Shown here one piece after another: positions 1 through 9,382 of a stretch of DNA of 37,245 bases. The DNA is from Candidatus Zixiibacteriota bacterium (lineage in GTDB: Bacteria; Zixibacteria; MSB-5A5; GN15; FEB-12). The first letter of the stretch is position 1. The number at the start of each line of letters is the position of its first letter. The DNA lies in the NCBI GenBank assembly GCA_020351995.1, contig CP070674.1:995775-1033019 (forward strand). Reading direction: 5' to 3'. Both the position numbers and the translations under genes were made by a program. The notes under the pieces are model-generated. The model made no database searches, was not told the DNA's origin, and saw only the letters and a program-made list of their open reading frames with translations.

Positions 1-125
1 ACAATATCGCCACCTGAATAAGCATGATGTCCCGACACGTTCTTCTTTTGGTCGGCCATCGCCTGTACGGCACAGAAACCCGGCACAAGCAGACCGAGAA
101 ACATCACCCACGCTCCCCTCTTCAT
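1..125 (-). CDS. Partial secreted protein, N-terminus only
   Basis: The gene starts at ATG 125-123 and runs off the left edge of the window, so only 41 codons are visible. The N-terminus begins MKRGAWVMFLGLLV and continues through a hydrophobic stretch to FCAVQAMADQ. This looks like a Sec signal peptide with an AMA-type cleavage site. The mature part seen is polar and His-containing (KNVSGHHAYSGGD). A strong Shine-Dalgarno (AAAGGAG) lies 6-7 nt before the ATG, and a good sigma70-type promoter lies about 190 nt upstream. The product cannot be identified from this fragment; export from the cytoplasm is inferred from the signal peptide only. Confidence 0.7.
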   Translation of the reverse strand, partial: MKRGAWVMFLGLLVPGFCAVQAMADQKKNVSGHHAYSGGDI

Positions 126-383: not shown

Positions 384-1433
384 CTACAGAATCAGCATGG
401 CGTCGCCATAGCTGTAAAAGCGGAAACGACTGGTAATGGCTTCCTGATACGCTTTCAGAATGAGCTCTCTCCCGGCGTAAGCGGATACAAGAATGAGAAG
501 CGACGATTTGGGCAGATGAAAATTGGTTATCAAATGATCGACAAACTTGAACTGGTGGCCCGGTCGTATATACAAATCAACCTCACCGCTAAATGGAACG
601 ATATCACCTTCTTTAACGGGAGCCGACTCCAGCGTTCTCACGGTAGTCGTGCCAACCACGAATATCTTTTTTCCAGTGGCCCTTGCCCTGCTTATCGAAT
701 CGGCAGCGGTCTGTGTTATCTCAGCGAACTCGGGGTCAACCGTGTGCTGGTCGATATCATCCACCTGAACCGGCTTGAATGTCCCCGGCCCCACATGAAG
801 CGTCAATTCAACTACCTCAACCCCTCTCGCCTTCAACTCGTCAAGAATTGTTGGGGTAAAATGAAAACCGGCAGTCGGAGCCGCCACCGCTCCCGTTTTC
901 TCCGGCTTTGCGAATACCGTCTGGTAACGCTCAACATCCTCGGGCACGTCCGCCCGCCTGATATACTGCGGTAACGGCACATGCCCGTAGCGCTCAATAA
1001 TCCGCTCCTCGAATAACGCCGACGAAAACTCGATCAGCCACTTGCTGCCTCTATTCTCTTTCAGCGTCAGGCTAAGCCTATCCGTGTGACAGGCTTTGTG
1101 AAAGTAAATCTCCTCCCCTTGCTTGACCCTGCGCGAAGGACGGACCATCGCCTCCCACACGAGCGGCTGACCTTCGGTGCGTCGGACCAGAAATACCTCA
1201 ACCTCACCCCCAGTCGCCCTGTTACCTAAAAGCCGGGCCTTAAACACCTTAGTATTGTTAACAACGAGGACATCACCCGCGCCCAGGTAACCGACGATAT
1301 TTTTGAATGCCCGCAGTTCAATTTTACCGGACGCTCTCTCAATCACCATCAAGCGAGATTCATCCCGATGCCGGGCCGGATATTGAGCGATAAGTTCCGG
1401 CGGAAGATGATAATCAAACAGGTTTAAATCCAT
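384..1433 (-). CDS. queA: S-adenosylmethionine:tRNA ribosyltransferase-isomerase (QueA)
   Basis: QueA transfers and isomerises the ribosyl part of SAM onto 7-aminomethyl-7-deazaguanine in tRNA to give epoxyqueuosine, the penultimate step of queuosine synthesis in the cytoplasm. The 349-residue protein has the usual family length and opens with the typical MDLNLFDYHLPPELIAQYP. It also shows VVNNTKVFKARLLG, the PTAGFHFT segment and a C-terminal TNFHLPKSSLLILVSA block. The gene is intact. A second copy of its first 20 codons and upstream region lies at 3402-3504, next to the DUF2905 gene. That suggests queA was once directly downstream of DUF2905 and the ruv genes. No strong Shine-Dalgarno is seen before the ATG. 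Confidence 0.97.
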   Translation of the reverse strand: MDLNLFDYHLPPELIAQYPARHRDESRLMVIERASGKIELRAFKNIVGYLGAGDVLVVNNTKVFKARLLGNRATGGEVEVFLVRRTEGQPLVWEAMVRPSRRVKQGEEIYFHKACHTDRLSLTLKENRGSKWLIEFSSALFEERIIERYGHVPLPQYIRRADVPEDVERYQTVFAKPEKTGAVAAPTAGFHFTPTILDELKARGVEVVELTLHVGPGTFKPVQVDDIDQHTVDPEFAEITQTAADSISRARATGKKIFVVGTTTVRTLESAPVKEGDIVPFSGEVDLYIRPGHQFKFVDHLITNFHLPKSSLLILVSAYAGRELILKAYQEAITSRFRFYSYGDAMLIL

Positions 1434-1476
1434 AGTCAGGGAGCAATAAGCGGAAAGATTTCCGGATAGTCAAGTT
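1375..1476. repeat. queA: 102-bp direct repeat, copy A (queA 5' end and upstream region)
   Basis: This segment matches 3403-3504 at a constant offset of 2028 bp with five mismatches that I count (1401, 1460, 1461, 1464, 1465). It holds the first 20 codons of the intact queA plus about 43 bp upstream. The single mismatch in the coding part is synonymous (a proline codon). The two copies bracket the GT-C-like gene. Confidence 0.9.
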
Positions 1477-1513
1477 TGGGCTGCCAGGGCAATGGCAGGG
1501 TAGCCCCAATAAG

Positions 1514-3178
1514 TCAAAGCTGATCACAAATGCTCATGAGCAACTCATTATTCGATTCATGAACAACATCCCCCTGCAACGGAAAATTTGCAGCCTGCGC
1601 CGCATTTTCAAACAGGACATAGCCTACACCCAGCTTTTTTAGCTCACGAAGGAATTCTTCTTGGTTGCCAATAGGTTTCCCCGCATATACCATGGGAAAA
1701 CGCTGTCGCCTTTTCGCCGCTATGCGCGTGTCTGTGCGGGCCAAATATGACAGATATACAAACCGCATATTCATCGTCACCTGATACGTGTCATGAACGT
1801 TCCTGTATCGGCCCTCCGGTATCACCAACACGAATCTGTCCCTTTTGAGTTGATTCGTTTGCCTGGCATTTAGAGAGAAATTCTTTACCGGCGAGACATT
1901 CAGCCCCTGTGGATAGTACTCGGTAATAGTTATCGCTAAAAATGCCAGTGCAACTGAAACCCTTGCCCATAATTTCCACTTCTGGATGATGTGGTTGAGA
2001 CCATGACAGGCAAGAATCAGGAAGAAAAATAGAAAGAACGGGAAAAAGCGAGAAAACACCCTAAAGCCAGTACCCATGGGTAAAGATCTCAATATGCCGC
2101 TGACGGCGTGAAATGGATCAAGAACTGCAGCCAAACATATGCCTGCCAGGATGAGAATCGCCTTGAGACCCTTGCGACCATTAATCCTCATCGCCACCAC
2201 ACCTGGAATTGCCAGCATAATGGTCGAGACGGGAACGTAAACGCCCCAGAATTCCGGAAAGCTTGAGACTGCCAGTCCCGACAGCACGCTGAGCTTAGGA
2301 AAAGTCATCAGGTCGACAAACGCAAGCTGCTGGTACAGTTTCACATCAACTATATCCGATGGCGCTCTGCTCAGAAAAAGTGCTGCTGGAACCGCGCCAA
2401 CCATGGCGGGCAAATAGAACATGATTCTCCGGGGTAGGCCCGAGGTCCGGCTGGAAAAAGCACCTATCTCCATTACCGCGACGACGCACACCAATACAAC
2501 GGCCAACATAAAGAACTCCACAAAAGAGGTCCAGAACGTAGACCAAAGCAGGACGGCAAACAGCACGGCGTAGGGCCACCTGAATCTGTTCTTGACATAG
2601 CTGTACACCAATACCGCCAGCGCCCCACCCCAGAAACATGCGCCTATGAGATTGATATGAGCGTGAGCCTTCACCACATGATATGGGCAAAACCCAAACA
2701 ATGCCCCCGAAATAAAGGCCGCAACTGCCGACACATTCCAAGTATAGTACAGGAAAAGGTGATACATCCAAGCACCTAAGACGATGAGCATCAACACCAT
2801 TAAGTTATATCCGGACACCGACCCGAATACCTTCGCGAGGGGTATTGTTATTAGCGTTGGAAGTATTGAAGTGGAGTGAAACACGAGGTTAGCGCCGGTC
2901 GGGGGAAGAACCCAGTTGCTGTAGAATAGCTCCTCACCGGTAAGTGCGGCCTTCTGAACCCACCAGTACGTCCACACATTCGTGTATGCATCACTCACCC
3001 CGGCTTGAAAGAAGATGTCGTCCGCCAGGACGTGGGTGGTCAGCGTTGACACGAACGGAGCCAATATGAAAACCGCCAGAACGCTATAACCGATCAGAGC
3101 CTTGATTGAGTGATTGGATGTTATTATGGATATGAAGGTTCCCAAGGACGCAGAGACTGTGTTCTTGTTAACGGCCAT
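1514..3178 (-). CDS. Polytopic membrane protein, GT-C glycosyltransferase-like
   Basis: A 554-residue integral membrane protein with about 10-12 hydrophobic segments and a soluble C-terminal part from about residue 440. After the first membrane helix comes an extracytoplasmic loop with ADDIFFQAGVSDAYTNVWTY, then LPPTGANLVFHSTS. This layout is typical of GT-C enzymes that use polyprenyl-phosphate sugars. The specific family was not identified and no donor or acceptor can be named. The gene lies between two direct copies of the queA 5' region, interrupting an otherwise tight DUF2905-queA arrangement, so it is probably a later arrival. Assignment as a GT-C-type transferase rests on topology and loop pattern only. 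Confidence 0.75.
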   Translation of the reverse strand: MAVNKNTVSASLGTFISIITSNHSIKALIGYSVLAVFILAPFVSTLTTHVLADDIFFQAGVSDAYTNVWTYWWVQKAALTGEELFYSNWVLPPTGANLVFHSTSILPTLITIPLAKVFGSVSGYNLMVLMLIVLGAWMYHLFLYYTWNVSAVAAFISGALFGFCPYHVVKAHAHINLIGACFWGGALAVLVYSYVKNRFRWPYAVLFAVLLWSTFWTSFVEFFMLAVVLVCVVAVMEIGAFSSRTSGLPRRIMFYLPAMVGAVPAALFLSRAPSDIVDVKLYQQLAFVDLMTFPKLSVLSGLAVSSFPEFWGVYVPVSTIMLAIPGVVAMRINGRKGLKAILILAGICLAAVLDPFHAVSGILRSLPMGTGFRVFSRFFPFFLFFFLILACHGLNHIIQKWKLWARVSVALAFLAITITEYYPQGLNVSPVKNFSLNARQTNQLKRDRFVLVIPEGRYRNVHDTYQVTMNMRFVYLSYLARTDTRIAAKRRQRFPMVYAGKPIGNQEEFLRELKKLGVGYVLFENAAQAANFPLQGDVVHESNNELLMSICDQL

Positions 3179-3195
3179 CAGAAAACACCCGCTGT

Positions 3196-3285
3196 TTATT
3201 TGTCAGCAGCACGCCGTTTGGACAGCTGGTTAAGCAGCCGCTCCGCGGCTTCCACTGGATGAAGTATCGGCGACCAAGATATCAA
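3196..3285 (-). pseudogene. Possible C-terminal gene remnant or chance ORF
   Basis: A short open frame ends at TAA 3198-3196, just upstream of the GT-C-like gene. Its last residues, HPVEAAERLLNQLSKRRAAD, look like the amphipathic tail of a real protein, but there is no good start codon or ribosome site. It lies inside the block bounded by the queA repeats, so it could be the end of a gene carried in with the insert. This is a weak call. Confidence 0.2.
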
Positions 3286-3389
3286 TTATACCGGGTGTAG
3301 TCAAGTTCAAGGGTGTTTCGGTAGTGCGAACTATCATGCCCAAATCGGCGGATAAATGTAACAACGGCTTTAACTCGGATCTTCCAGAT

Positions 3390-3461
3390 CTAATGAGTGG
3401 CAGCCGGATATTGAGCGATAAGTTCCGGTGGAAGATGATAATCAAACAGGTTTAAATCCAT
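3390..3461 (-). pseudogene. queA: Truncated queA 5' fragment
   Basis: From an ATG at 3461-3459 the frame reads MDLNLFDYHLPPELIAQYPA, identical to the first 20 residues of the intact queA. It leaves homology and stops after three more codons (TAG at 3392-3390). It therefore marks the old queA position directly downstream of the DUF2905 gene. Any product would be a 23-residue peptide without QueA function. Confidence 0.85.
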
Positions 3462-3504
3462 AGTCAGGGAGCAATAAGCGGAAAGATGCCCATATAGTCA
3501 AGTT
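3403..3504. repeat. 102-bp direct repeat, copy B (queA fragment beside DUF2905)
   Basis: Direct-orientation partner of 1375-1476, about 95 percent identical. The rest of 3179-3525 (347 bp between the GT-C-like gene and DUF2905) holds a possible -10 TATAAT on the minus strand (3290-3285), the possible remnant at 3196-3285 and a third copy of the short motif tagtcaagtt near 3298. That motif also sits at the outer end of both repeat copies. Confidence 0.9.
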
Positions 3505-3525: not shown

Positions 3526-3747
3526 CTATTTCCACCGCCCGATCAGATTGAGTATCAACGTAAGCAGAGCCGACAGTATAAGGCAGGTAGCTATCGGAAT
3601 GTAGATCCGGGTGTTGCCAGACTTGAATGAGAAGTCTCCGGGAAGTTTCCCGATCAGCGGAATCTTATCCACCAGCAGCAGAACCAGGCCGAACACCACT
3701 ATCAACAGACCAAAAACAATCAGCACCTTGCCGAACTGGGGAAGCAT
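3526..3747 (-). CDS. DUF2905 family small membrane protein
   Basis: About 73 residues with two predicted membrane helices separated by the family pattern IPLIGKLPGDF and a TRIYIPIATCLILSALLTLI stretch. This matches DUF2905, a short inner-membrane family of unknown function often encoded beside ruvB and queA. I prefer ATG 3747-3745 because family members usually begin M-x-x-x-GK and GTGAGGTGGAGG lies just before it. A GTG at 3759 would add four residues and touch the stop of the gene upstream. It belongs to the minus-strand ruv cluster. What it does for that cluster is not known. Confidence 0.85.
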   Translation of the reverse strand: MLPQFGKVLIVFGLLIVVFGLVLLLVDKIPLIGKLPGDFSFKSGNTRIYIPIATCLILSALLTLILNLIGRWK

Positions 3748-3758
3748 CCTCCACCTCA

Positions 3759-4049
3759 CTACTGCAGCTTGAAGAGAATGATACGATCGATAAAAATCTG
3801 CGCCAGGGCTTTCTGCTCCGGGGTCAGGTCAGAAGGGAATTTCTCACCGTTTAGATGGGTCTCCAGGGCATCCAGAGCCCTGCGGGTATCCTCCACAGTC
3901 AGGATTTGCCCCGTTTCTTCCTTGAGCTTATCACGAAAGTGAATGGTATCGTTGATTAGATTCTTCACCACCGAATTGACATTCTCTTTGTCTTCGAGAA
4001 TCTGGCCCCCCAGAGCTTTAATCAGCAAGCGATATTCCTCGTCAGACAT
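3759..4049 (-). CDS. Unknown 96-aa helical protein downstream of ruvB
   Basis: I do not recognise this gene. The 96-residue product is charged and predicted mostly helical, without signal peptide or membrane segment. It has an alternating E/K/D pattern and a C-terminal PEQKALAQIFIDRIILFKLQ. It has a clear Shine-Dalgarno, AAAGGAG, 8 nt before the ATG at 4049. Its stop abuts the alternative GTG start of the DUF2905 gene, and it begins about 60 nt after the ruvB stop. The position argues for co-transcription with ruvCAB. A link to Holliday-junction work is guilt by association only. Confidence 0.75.
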   Translation of the reverse strand: MSDEEYRLLIKALGGQILEDKENVNSVVKNLINDTIHFRDKLKEETGQILTVEDTRRALDALETHLNGEKFPSDLTPEQKALAQIFIDRIILFKLQ

Positions 4050-4108: not shown

Positions 4109-5137
4109 TCAGAAAAGACTGCCCTGCGACCCGGTCTTCGGGATTTTTATCCCGAGATGACCGGCGGCCCCTGCCGAGGCAACCCTTCCCCGCTTGGTAC
4201 GCTGAACGAAACCAATCTTGAGAAGATAGGGCTCGACCATATCCACCAGGGTATCGGCCTCTTCACTCAACGTGGCGGCCAGGGCTTCAATACCGACCGG
4301 CCCGCCCTTGTAATACTCTAAGATAACTTTGAGAAGCTTGCGATCCAGATTATCCAGCCCGAGCGAATCTATTCCCTCGGCATCAAGGGCTTTGGCGGCA
4401 ATCCCGGAGTTGATCACACCGTCGCCTTTGACCGCAGAGTAATCGCGTACCCTGCGCAAAAGCCGGTTGGCGATTCTCGGCGTTCCCCGCGAGCGTCCGG
4501 CAATAACCTCGGCAGCTTCAGGCTCAATCTGAGTTTCCAGCAGCTTGGCTGAGCGCAGAACAATTTCCTTCAATTCACTCGCTGGATAGAAGTCGATATG
4601 ATAGTACAGGCCGAAGCGGTCGCGCAAAGGAGCCGAAAGCATCCCCGCCCGGGTAGTCGCGCCGACCAGCGTGAACCGCTTTAACGGCACATTTATCACT
4701 TTGGCGAACGCCCCCTTGTCCACCACGAAGTCAATCTTGAAGTCCTCCATGGCCGGGTACATGAATTCCTCGATCGTCGGCGACAAACGGTGAATCTCAT
4801 CAATAAAGAGAACATCGCCATCCTGAAGATTGGTCAGAATACCCATCAGATCACCTGTCCGCTGCAAAGCCGGACCGGCTGTCGAGTAGATTTTCGTACC
4901 CATCTCGTTGGCCAGAATGTGCGCCAGCGTCGTCTTCCCCAAGCCCGGTGGACCATAAAACAGGACATGTTCGACGGCCTCTTTGCGCCCCCTCGCCGCC
5001 TCAAGTGTAACTTTAATTTTATCCCGTAACTCCTTTTGACCTATATATTCCGACAGGAGCTTGGGACGCAGGGAAAGCTGTACACTGTCCTCGTCCGGGG
5101 TTTCTTGTGATCCGGTCACAATTCGCTCGCGTGCCAT
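4109..5137 (-). CDS. ruvB: Holliday junction branch-migration ATPase RuvB
   Basis: RuvB is the AAA+ motor that, loaded by RuvA, drives branch migration of Holliday junctions during recombinational repair. The 342-residue protein is full length. Walker A is GPPGLGKTTLA near residues 62-72, Walker B is LFIDEIHRLSP near 110-120, and GATTRAGMLSAPLRDRFG carries the sensor and arginine-finger region. A winged-helix end (GPVGIEALA to the C-terminus) closes the protein. ruvA lies immediately upstream with a 7-nt gap, so the two are almost certainly co-transcribed. Nothing unusual is seen. Confidence 0.98.
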   Translation of the reverse strand: MARERIVTGSQETPDEDSVQLSLRPKLLSEYIGQKELRDKIKVTLEAARGRKEAVEHVLFYGPPGLGKTTLAHILANEMGTKIYSTAGPALQRTGDLMGILTNLQDGDVLFIDEIHRLSPTIEEFMYPAMEDFKIDFVVDKGAFAKVINVPLKRFTLVGATTRAGMLSAPLRDRFGLYYHIDFYPASELKEIVLRSAKLLETQIEPEAAEVIAGRSRGTPRIANRLLRRVRDYSAVKGDGVINSGIAAKALDAEGIDSLGLDNLDRKLLKVILEYYKGGPVGIEALAATLSEEADTLVDMVEPYLLKIGFVQRTKRGRVASAGAAGHLGIKIPKTGSQGSLF

Positions 5138-8587: not shown

Positions 8588-9382
8588 TTATCTACTATTC
8601 GGCAAAATCGCCGCCCGACTTCGCACCATTTGCCTAATCGTATATACCGCAATAGGATAAAAGAATCCGGACCATCCCGAAATCCCGAATATGGCCGCCC
8701 GTTTCACAGGATAATCCAGAAGAAAATAACTGAAAATCGAGACGACCATCAGGGCAAAGGTGGCCGCTGCCGCACCAAGCAAAACCCGGAAGAATAGTTT
8801 GTTCCTTGTCCTGCGAGGCGCAAAACCCGGCTGTGGGCTCGGAAGCAGTCGGGTTTTCCGTAAACCGAAGACTAGTCCCACTATCCCGACCGTGGTACTC
8901 ACCTGCTGGACGATCAAAGTGTTTAAAACCGGCACTCCGATTATTATCGTATTGTCACTGAGAAATGGCACCGCGCGGGCAATCTCTCCGCCGGTGTGTG
9001 TTAAAGAGTCCCAGAAGAAGTGGCTTAGTGTTCCCACCAAAACGGATACCACCAAGACCGCCCAGGATCTTAATCCAACAACACTGAACGACGTGGTCGC
9101 CAAACCCGAAAGTGCTTTATCAAAAGGACTTGGCAGATTAATTATGAAGTTATACTTAAAGAGCCAGTGGAACGCGAAAGCAAAAGCTATCCCGGCCGGC
9201 AGACAGAACATAACCAGCCCGGTCCAGCTGTGCCCAAGTCCCCTTGAAACGGTGGTTAATTGAAGGAAATAAACCAGATCGGGAGCCATGGCTCCGGCCA
9301 TCAACCCCGTAAGAGAGACATATCGGGGCCAGAGCCACTTGATAGGTATTATCAGGACCGTATGAGCAACGGTAAATGGCAC
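8588..9382 (-). CDS. DUF4184 family integral membrane protein
   Basis: A 264-residue polytopic membrane protein with about seven predicted helices. The N-terminus MPFTVAHTVLIIPIK, then SLTGLMAGAMAPDLVYFL and a later LVGTLSHFFWDSLTHTGG, match DUF4184. The conserved H, D and E/Q residues resemble membrane-bound metal-dependent hydrolase relatives (YdjM/DUF457-like). Biochemical function is unknown. The start is GTG 9382-9380, chosen because the family begins M-P-F-T. A TATATA lies six bases upstream, so this too could be leaderless, but I see no convincing -35. It stands alone. Confidence 0.88.
   Translation of the reverse strand: MPFTVAHTVLIIPIKWLWPRYVSLTGLMAGAMAPDLVYFLQLTTVSRGLGHSWTGLVMFCLPAGIAFAFAFHWLFKYNFIINLPSPFDKALSGLATTSFSVVGLRSWAVLVVSVLVGTLSHFFWDSLTHTGGEIARAVPFLSDNTIIIGVPVLNTLIVQQVSTTVGIVGLVFGLRKTRLLPSPQPGFAPRRTRNKLFFRVLLGAAAATFALMVVSIFSYFLLDYPVKRAAIFGISGWSGFFYPIAVYTIRQMVRSRAAILPNSR

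Follow-up and report, generated by a model that had tools for sequence, protein, structure and literature searches.

A GT-C-like membrane-protein gene between direct repeats of the queA start in an uncultured Zixibacteria species: a probable lineage-specific insertion

The queA locus and its counterparts in relatives

The stretch of DNA analyzed here, referred to as the window, comprises 37,245 nucleotides and is a single contig (genome positions 995775-1033019 of CP070674.1, assembly GCA_020351995.1) from Candidatus Zixiibacteriota bacterium, an uncultured Zixibacteria species. Its minus strand carries a compact row of genes that includes ruvB (4109-5137; 87-89% identical to the congeneric genes), a conserved ORF of 96 amino acids (3759-4049), a DUF2905 gene (3526-3759; Pfam PF11146, 3.3e-21), a gene for a polytopic membrane protein of 554 amino acids (1514-3178), and the tRNA-modification gene queA (384-1433). 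The last of these is intact, with 349 codons, a Pfam match to PF02547 Queuosine_synth at 3.6e-125, and 69-78% identity to the congeners over its full length. The 96-amino-acid ORF yielded no significant Pfam or NCBIfam match; it is conserved between ruvB and queA, before DUF2905 and queA, in most genomes of the family and is part of the ancestral row.

In all three congeners (G001 to G003) the row reads ruvB, 96-amino-acid ORF, DUF2905, and queA, with a gap of about 46-60 bp between the last two genes and no extra gene. DUF2905 also lies directly before queA in six other genomes of the family (G008, G009, G012, G027, G030, and G032), and a GT-C gene is absent from the queA site at every family locus compared. 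A queA stub in G036 was considered as a parallel case and rejected, as it lies at a contig end; a queA stub in G057 lies outside any ORF of at least 90 amino acids.

A 102-bp direct repeat of the queA start

The membrane-protein gene is bracketed by two direct copies of a 102-nt sequence, copy A at 1375-1476 and copy B at 3403-3504, both read on the minus strand. An earlier note, made from the letters of the DNA alone, had reported this match at a constant offset of 2028 bp with five mismatches, and the repeat search returned the same spacing and mismatches at 95% identity; beyond both ends of the repeat, identity drops at once to background. Queried against the entire genome, the 102 bp matched at these two places only (E values of 7.5e-48 and 6.3e-41; next best, 0.32), and a chance origin of the repeat is therefore excluded. 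Copy A comprises the putative promoter region, the leader, and the first 19 codons of the intact queA, to which the earlier note had assigned it, and copy B holds the native set of the same elements; the putative control region of an intact queA is duplicated, again as that note had proposed. The same note had described a 20-codon queA stub beside DUF2905; the stub is there, on the minus strand at 3390-3461, and shares its first 19 amino acids with queA, but the ORF has 23 codons. The queA stub of copy B lies 64 nt past DUF2905, in keeping with the native DUF2905-queA spacing, and copy B therefore sits at the native place. A CTTGAC element upstream of queA, followed by TTATTG or TAATTG near the start, is conserved across the genus and present in both copies, and this conservation suggests that the duplicated stretch consists of the queA promoter together with the leader and first codons.

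The short sequence TAGTCAAGTT occurs three times in the window (3297-3306, 1467-1476, and 3495-3504) and nowhere else in a 400-kb sample of the genome, in which about 0.4 occurrences would be expected; on the minus strand it contains the -35-like TTGACT of both queA and the GT-C-like gene. No second repeat of the same kind as the 102-bp repeat was found in the 400 kb sampled. Recurrence of such an insertion was rejected for that sample, in which the other repeats comprised ExbD-like paralogues, a hairpin repeat between genes, and a group of repeats at 1157-1177 kb. The hairpin-forming sequence, 61 bp long, recurs at a distance of exactly 305 bp (genome positions 903143-903203 and 903448-903508) and is possibly a dispersed repeat.

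The five mismatches between copies A and B fall at 1401/3429, 1460/3488, 1461/3489, 1464/3492, and 1465/3493. One is coding and synonymous, copy A having the codon of G002 and G003, and the remaining four are confined to a 6-bp patch in the promoter spacer, a clustering with P = 0.0012. Most of the differences cluster at a perfect palindrome in copy A, CGGAAATCTTTCCG (1451-1464, minus strand), which also emerged from the terminator scan; the corresponding place in copy B reads TGGGCATCTTTCCG, with TATGG common to copy B and G001. Three of the four clustered mismatches complete the copy A palindrome. Template switching is a described type of mutation that converts imperfect inverted repeats to perfect ones (PMC3820800), and these three differences appear to reflect one templated event after the duplication. 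Judged from the pattern of differences, the copies were probably identical at the start and diverged later, each acquiring its own derived change, and the insertion probably took place long after this species and the congeners had separated, QueA of this species being 69-78% identical to theirs. Gene conversion could also have maintained the likeness of the copies. Recombination between the repeats, proposed in the earlier note, might still excise the block.

The GT-C-like gene and its product

Between the queA stub and the membrane-protein gene lies a leader of 224 bp (3179-3402), and a short spacer (1477-1513) separates the stop codon of that gene from copy A. The leader contains a sigma-70-like promoter, TTGACT-17-TATCTT at 3304-3276, promoter-like sites being no more numerous than expected by chance; the gene is probably expressed both from this promoter of its own and by transcripts that read through from the ruv-DUF2905 row. 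The interval 1477-3402 holds no integrase, transposase, or insertion sequence (IS) gene and contains only the GT-C-like ORF and frames that overlap it, and the repeat search detected no inverted repeats at the ends of the block.

Searches of Pfam, NCBIfam, and PDB sequences with the 554-amino-acid protein gave no match of note. An AlphaFold2 model built from 15 sequences reached a pLDDT of 73.9 and a pTM of 0.80, an earlier model from 7 sequences (pLDDT, 42) having been too poor for use. When the model was compared with PDB structures by Foldseek, all 12 matches at an E value of ≤5e-4 were GT-C enzymes; AftD (1.7e-7) and AglB (4.2e-7) were the best, and DPY19, PglB, ArnT, and AftA were also represented. 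An aspartate in the first outer loop, D63, is conserved in at least 90% of the 15 homologues. One distant homologue passes the YfhO model (34.8 versus 28.5 bits), and two others just miss the YfhO and PMT_2 models. The predicted fold supports the assignment of the protein as a GT-C-like membrane enzyme, as the earlier note had suggested. It resembles the GT-C glycosyltransferases (AftD, AglB/PglB, DPY19, ArnT, and AftA, as well as YfhO-like and PMT_2-like proteins) in its predicted fold, its many membrane helices, and perhaps its conserved early-loop aspartate, and it differs from these families in matching no Pfam model.

The gene is lineage specific. No close relative of its product was found in the other genomes of the order that were searched (60 relatives; 61 genomes in all), where weak relatives of 26-32% identity are present, and the sole near relative among 132 genomes of the phylum is a fragment in G131, 49% identical and cut off by the end of its contig; G131 belongs to another family of the same class. 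A search of genome contigs with the single protein sequence returned nothing; with an alignment, it returned 11 loci, mostly distant and some of them in genomes already compared. Set against 83 ORFs of similar size, the gene lies at the 8th percentile for GC content, the 17th for GC3, and the 92nd for codon usage. Its composition, a property that the earlier note had singled out for comparison, is therefore mildly atypical but inside the range of the genome, and a foreign source is neither proved nor excluded by it.

Origin of the block

We consider it probable, with appreciable room for doubt, that a single-gene block of approximately 1.9-2.0 kb was inserted illegitimately at the start of queA in the lineage of this species, with a 102-bp target duplication. 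A segment carrying one GT-C-like glycosyltransferase gene would have entered the queA start, for example by template switching or by the capture of DNA during break repair, and the event would have duplicated 102 bp of its target, comprising the promoter, the leader, and 19 codons. The copy on the DUF2905 side would thereby have become the 23-codon stub, and the far-side copy would have given the intact gene a full promoter and start. The insertion would have been retained because the duplication saved queA from disruption. Entry of the block at the queA start had been proposed in the earlier note and is supported by the empty site in relatives (the DUF2905-queA junction is free of the block in the three congeners and in the six family genomes named above), by the lineage-restricted protein, and by the native spacing of copy B.

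Several observations bear on the route. A transposon or IS element was rejected, there being neither a transposase nor terminal inverted repeats and the duplication measuring 102 bp rather than the short 2-14 bp. Ku-dependent end joining was likewise rejected, as Ku was not found in 13 genomes (the source and 12 relatives), and the joining step would therefore need polymerase-error or alternative routes. The search for a mobile donor found no relative of the GT-C-like protein in plasmids or viral contigs and no queA start in viral contigs. The recombinase-free block, the failure to find a mobile donor or Ku, and the lack of a second such repeat in the 400 kb sampled point to one illegitimate insertion that duplicated its target. 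Neither a donor sequence nor a second strain of the species was found, which counts against this explanation, and the junctions therefore cannot be read against a donor.

The earlier note had offered a different route, in which a circle carrying the GT-C gene and approximately 100 bp of the queA 5' end was integrated by a single crossover of the Campbell type. Such an event yields exactly the anatomy seen here, with direct repeats, an intact queA, and the block between them, and about 100 bp of near identity suffices in principle for homologous recombination. No feature of the sequence calls for a circle, however, and an extra event is needed, in that the circle must first have captured 102 bp of the species' own queA start; the plasmid and viral searches brought no donor to light, and the copies do not resemble those of two diverged strains, their mismatches having the appearance of changes after duplication rather than of donor divergence. 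We regard this route as rather unlikely, and the 102 bp would be a duplication of the target rather than homology brought by a donor. A false repeat, produced by an assembly that joined strain variants or contig ends at the queA start, is less likely again. The window is itself one of the pieces that 100-N runs link in this metagenome-type draft, and the repeat is close in length to the overlaps used by short-read assemblers; on the other hand, 1375-3504 contains no run of N, the five differing sites show that one overlap was not printed twice, and coherent genes continue on both outer sides of the repeat.

Flanking repeats that rebuild the start of the target, and a whole queA of 349 codons, would also be accounted for by a site-specific integrative element that targeted and restored the queA 5' end and of which one cargo gene is left. 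In the case of SXT/R391, the start of prfC is restored on the far side of the element. These elements provide a precedent for the targeting of a 5' end (PMC4857294), but no integrase or integrase fragment is present in the block, and no second element occurs at queA among the relatives. The repeat also covers the promoter and 19 codons and extends beyond the usual crossover core of site-specific recombination, which is shorter than 102 bp, and we consider an origin of this kind quite improbable. Still harder to credit is a tandem duplication of a segment running from queA to the GT-C gene, followed by a deletion inside the first copy: the stub, the GT-C gene, and the full queA could arise in the observed order, yet two precise events are required, and the GT-C gene must already have been downstream of queA and would be left in a second copy, whereas only one exists. 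We attach similarly little probability to the idea of a mobile unit of one gene, now reduced to this block, that would insert itself where genes begin and copy the promoter and first codons of its target, which would let the target survive.

Relation to known systems

We favor the view that the insertion is an ordinary, one-off, lineage-specific change of the genome, and short variable segments of comparable type are an already described class. Of the small variable segments that make up the "microdiversity" loci of bacterial genomes, approximately 10% are flanked by direct repeats; such segments are frequent in membrane-protein genes and have been ascribed mainly to illegitimate recombination (PMC2884548). 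The queA block resembles them (PMC2884548) in being gene sized, confined to one lineage while its neighbors lack it, bounded by direct repeats, and occupied by a membrane-protein gene, and it differs in that the comparison is between species rather than strains and that its repeat duplicates 102 bp of the neighboring gene, with the putative promoter and start codons, and so rebuilds that gene. In homology-facilitated illegitimate recombination and in insertion-duplication mutants, foreign DNA would likewise come to lie beside duplicated host sequence, whereas here the donor was not found and the copies fit a plain target duplication. The likeness to SXT/R391 lies in the interruption of the target start and its restoration on the other side. 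Those elements, which occupy the 5' end of prfC, are approximately 100 kb long and carry integrase and conjugation genes, in contrast to the one-gene block of about 2 kb described here (PMC4857294). The locus would provide a clean example of a gene entering a tight row without killing its neighbor, the duplicated start having rebuilt queA, and of the gain by this Zixibacterium of a lineage-specific, sugar-transferase-like enzyme.

Scaffold order around the window

The 3.6-Mb genome is a metagenome-type gapped draft in which contigs are chained by 100-N joins, and the window is bordered on each side by a run of exactly 100 N (genome positions 995675-995774 and 1033020-1033119); gene order past the ends of the window is therefore unreliable. 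The gene after queA is ispD in the congeners and at 27 of the 29 loci of the family, whereas in this genome ispD seems to lie 0.83 Mb away, at 1.827 Mb. A chromosomal break at queA was rejected, as the window is bounded by 100-N runs and the ispD contig also starts at one, and the split is probably one of scaffold order.

Window positions 1-125 (minus strand) hold the start of a secreted-protein gene (41 codons), oriented as queA, and the ispD contig opens inside a large secreted protein (L078, 9073-11667), oriented as ispD and with 13 matches in the genome. The N termini of paralogues of the large protein are weakly similar to the start at the left end of the window (best E value, 0.21), and the two pieces may belong, as its opposite ends, to a single gene situated between queA and ispD. 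The order queA, secreted-protein gene, ispD, without a chromosomal rearrangement, would be the most economical reading. At a 100-N join on L078 (approximately 8967-9072), secA lacks its first 74 codons by comparison with G001, a loss that is likely to be a scaffold gap rather than a real truncation. Breaks in gene order in this Zixibacterium draft can thus be scaffold joins, and should be read with that warning in mind. The contig placed to the left of the window carries a second GT-C-like gene (L045, 6538-8493, corresponding to window positions -4236 to -2281), which is of the type commoner in the order and whose product is 38-39% identical to proteins of G039 and G052.
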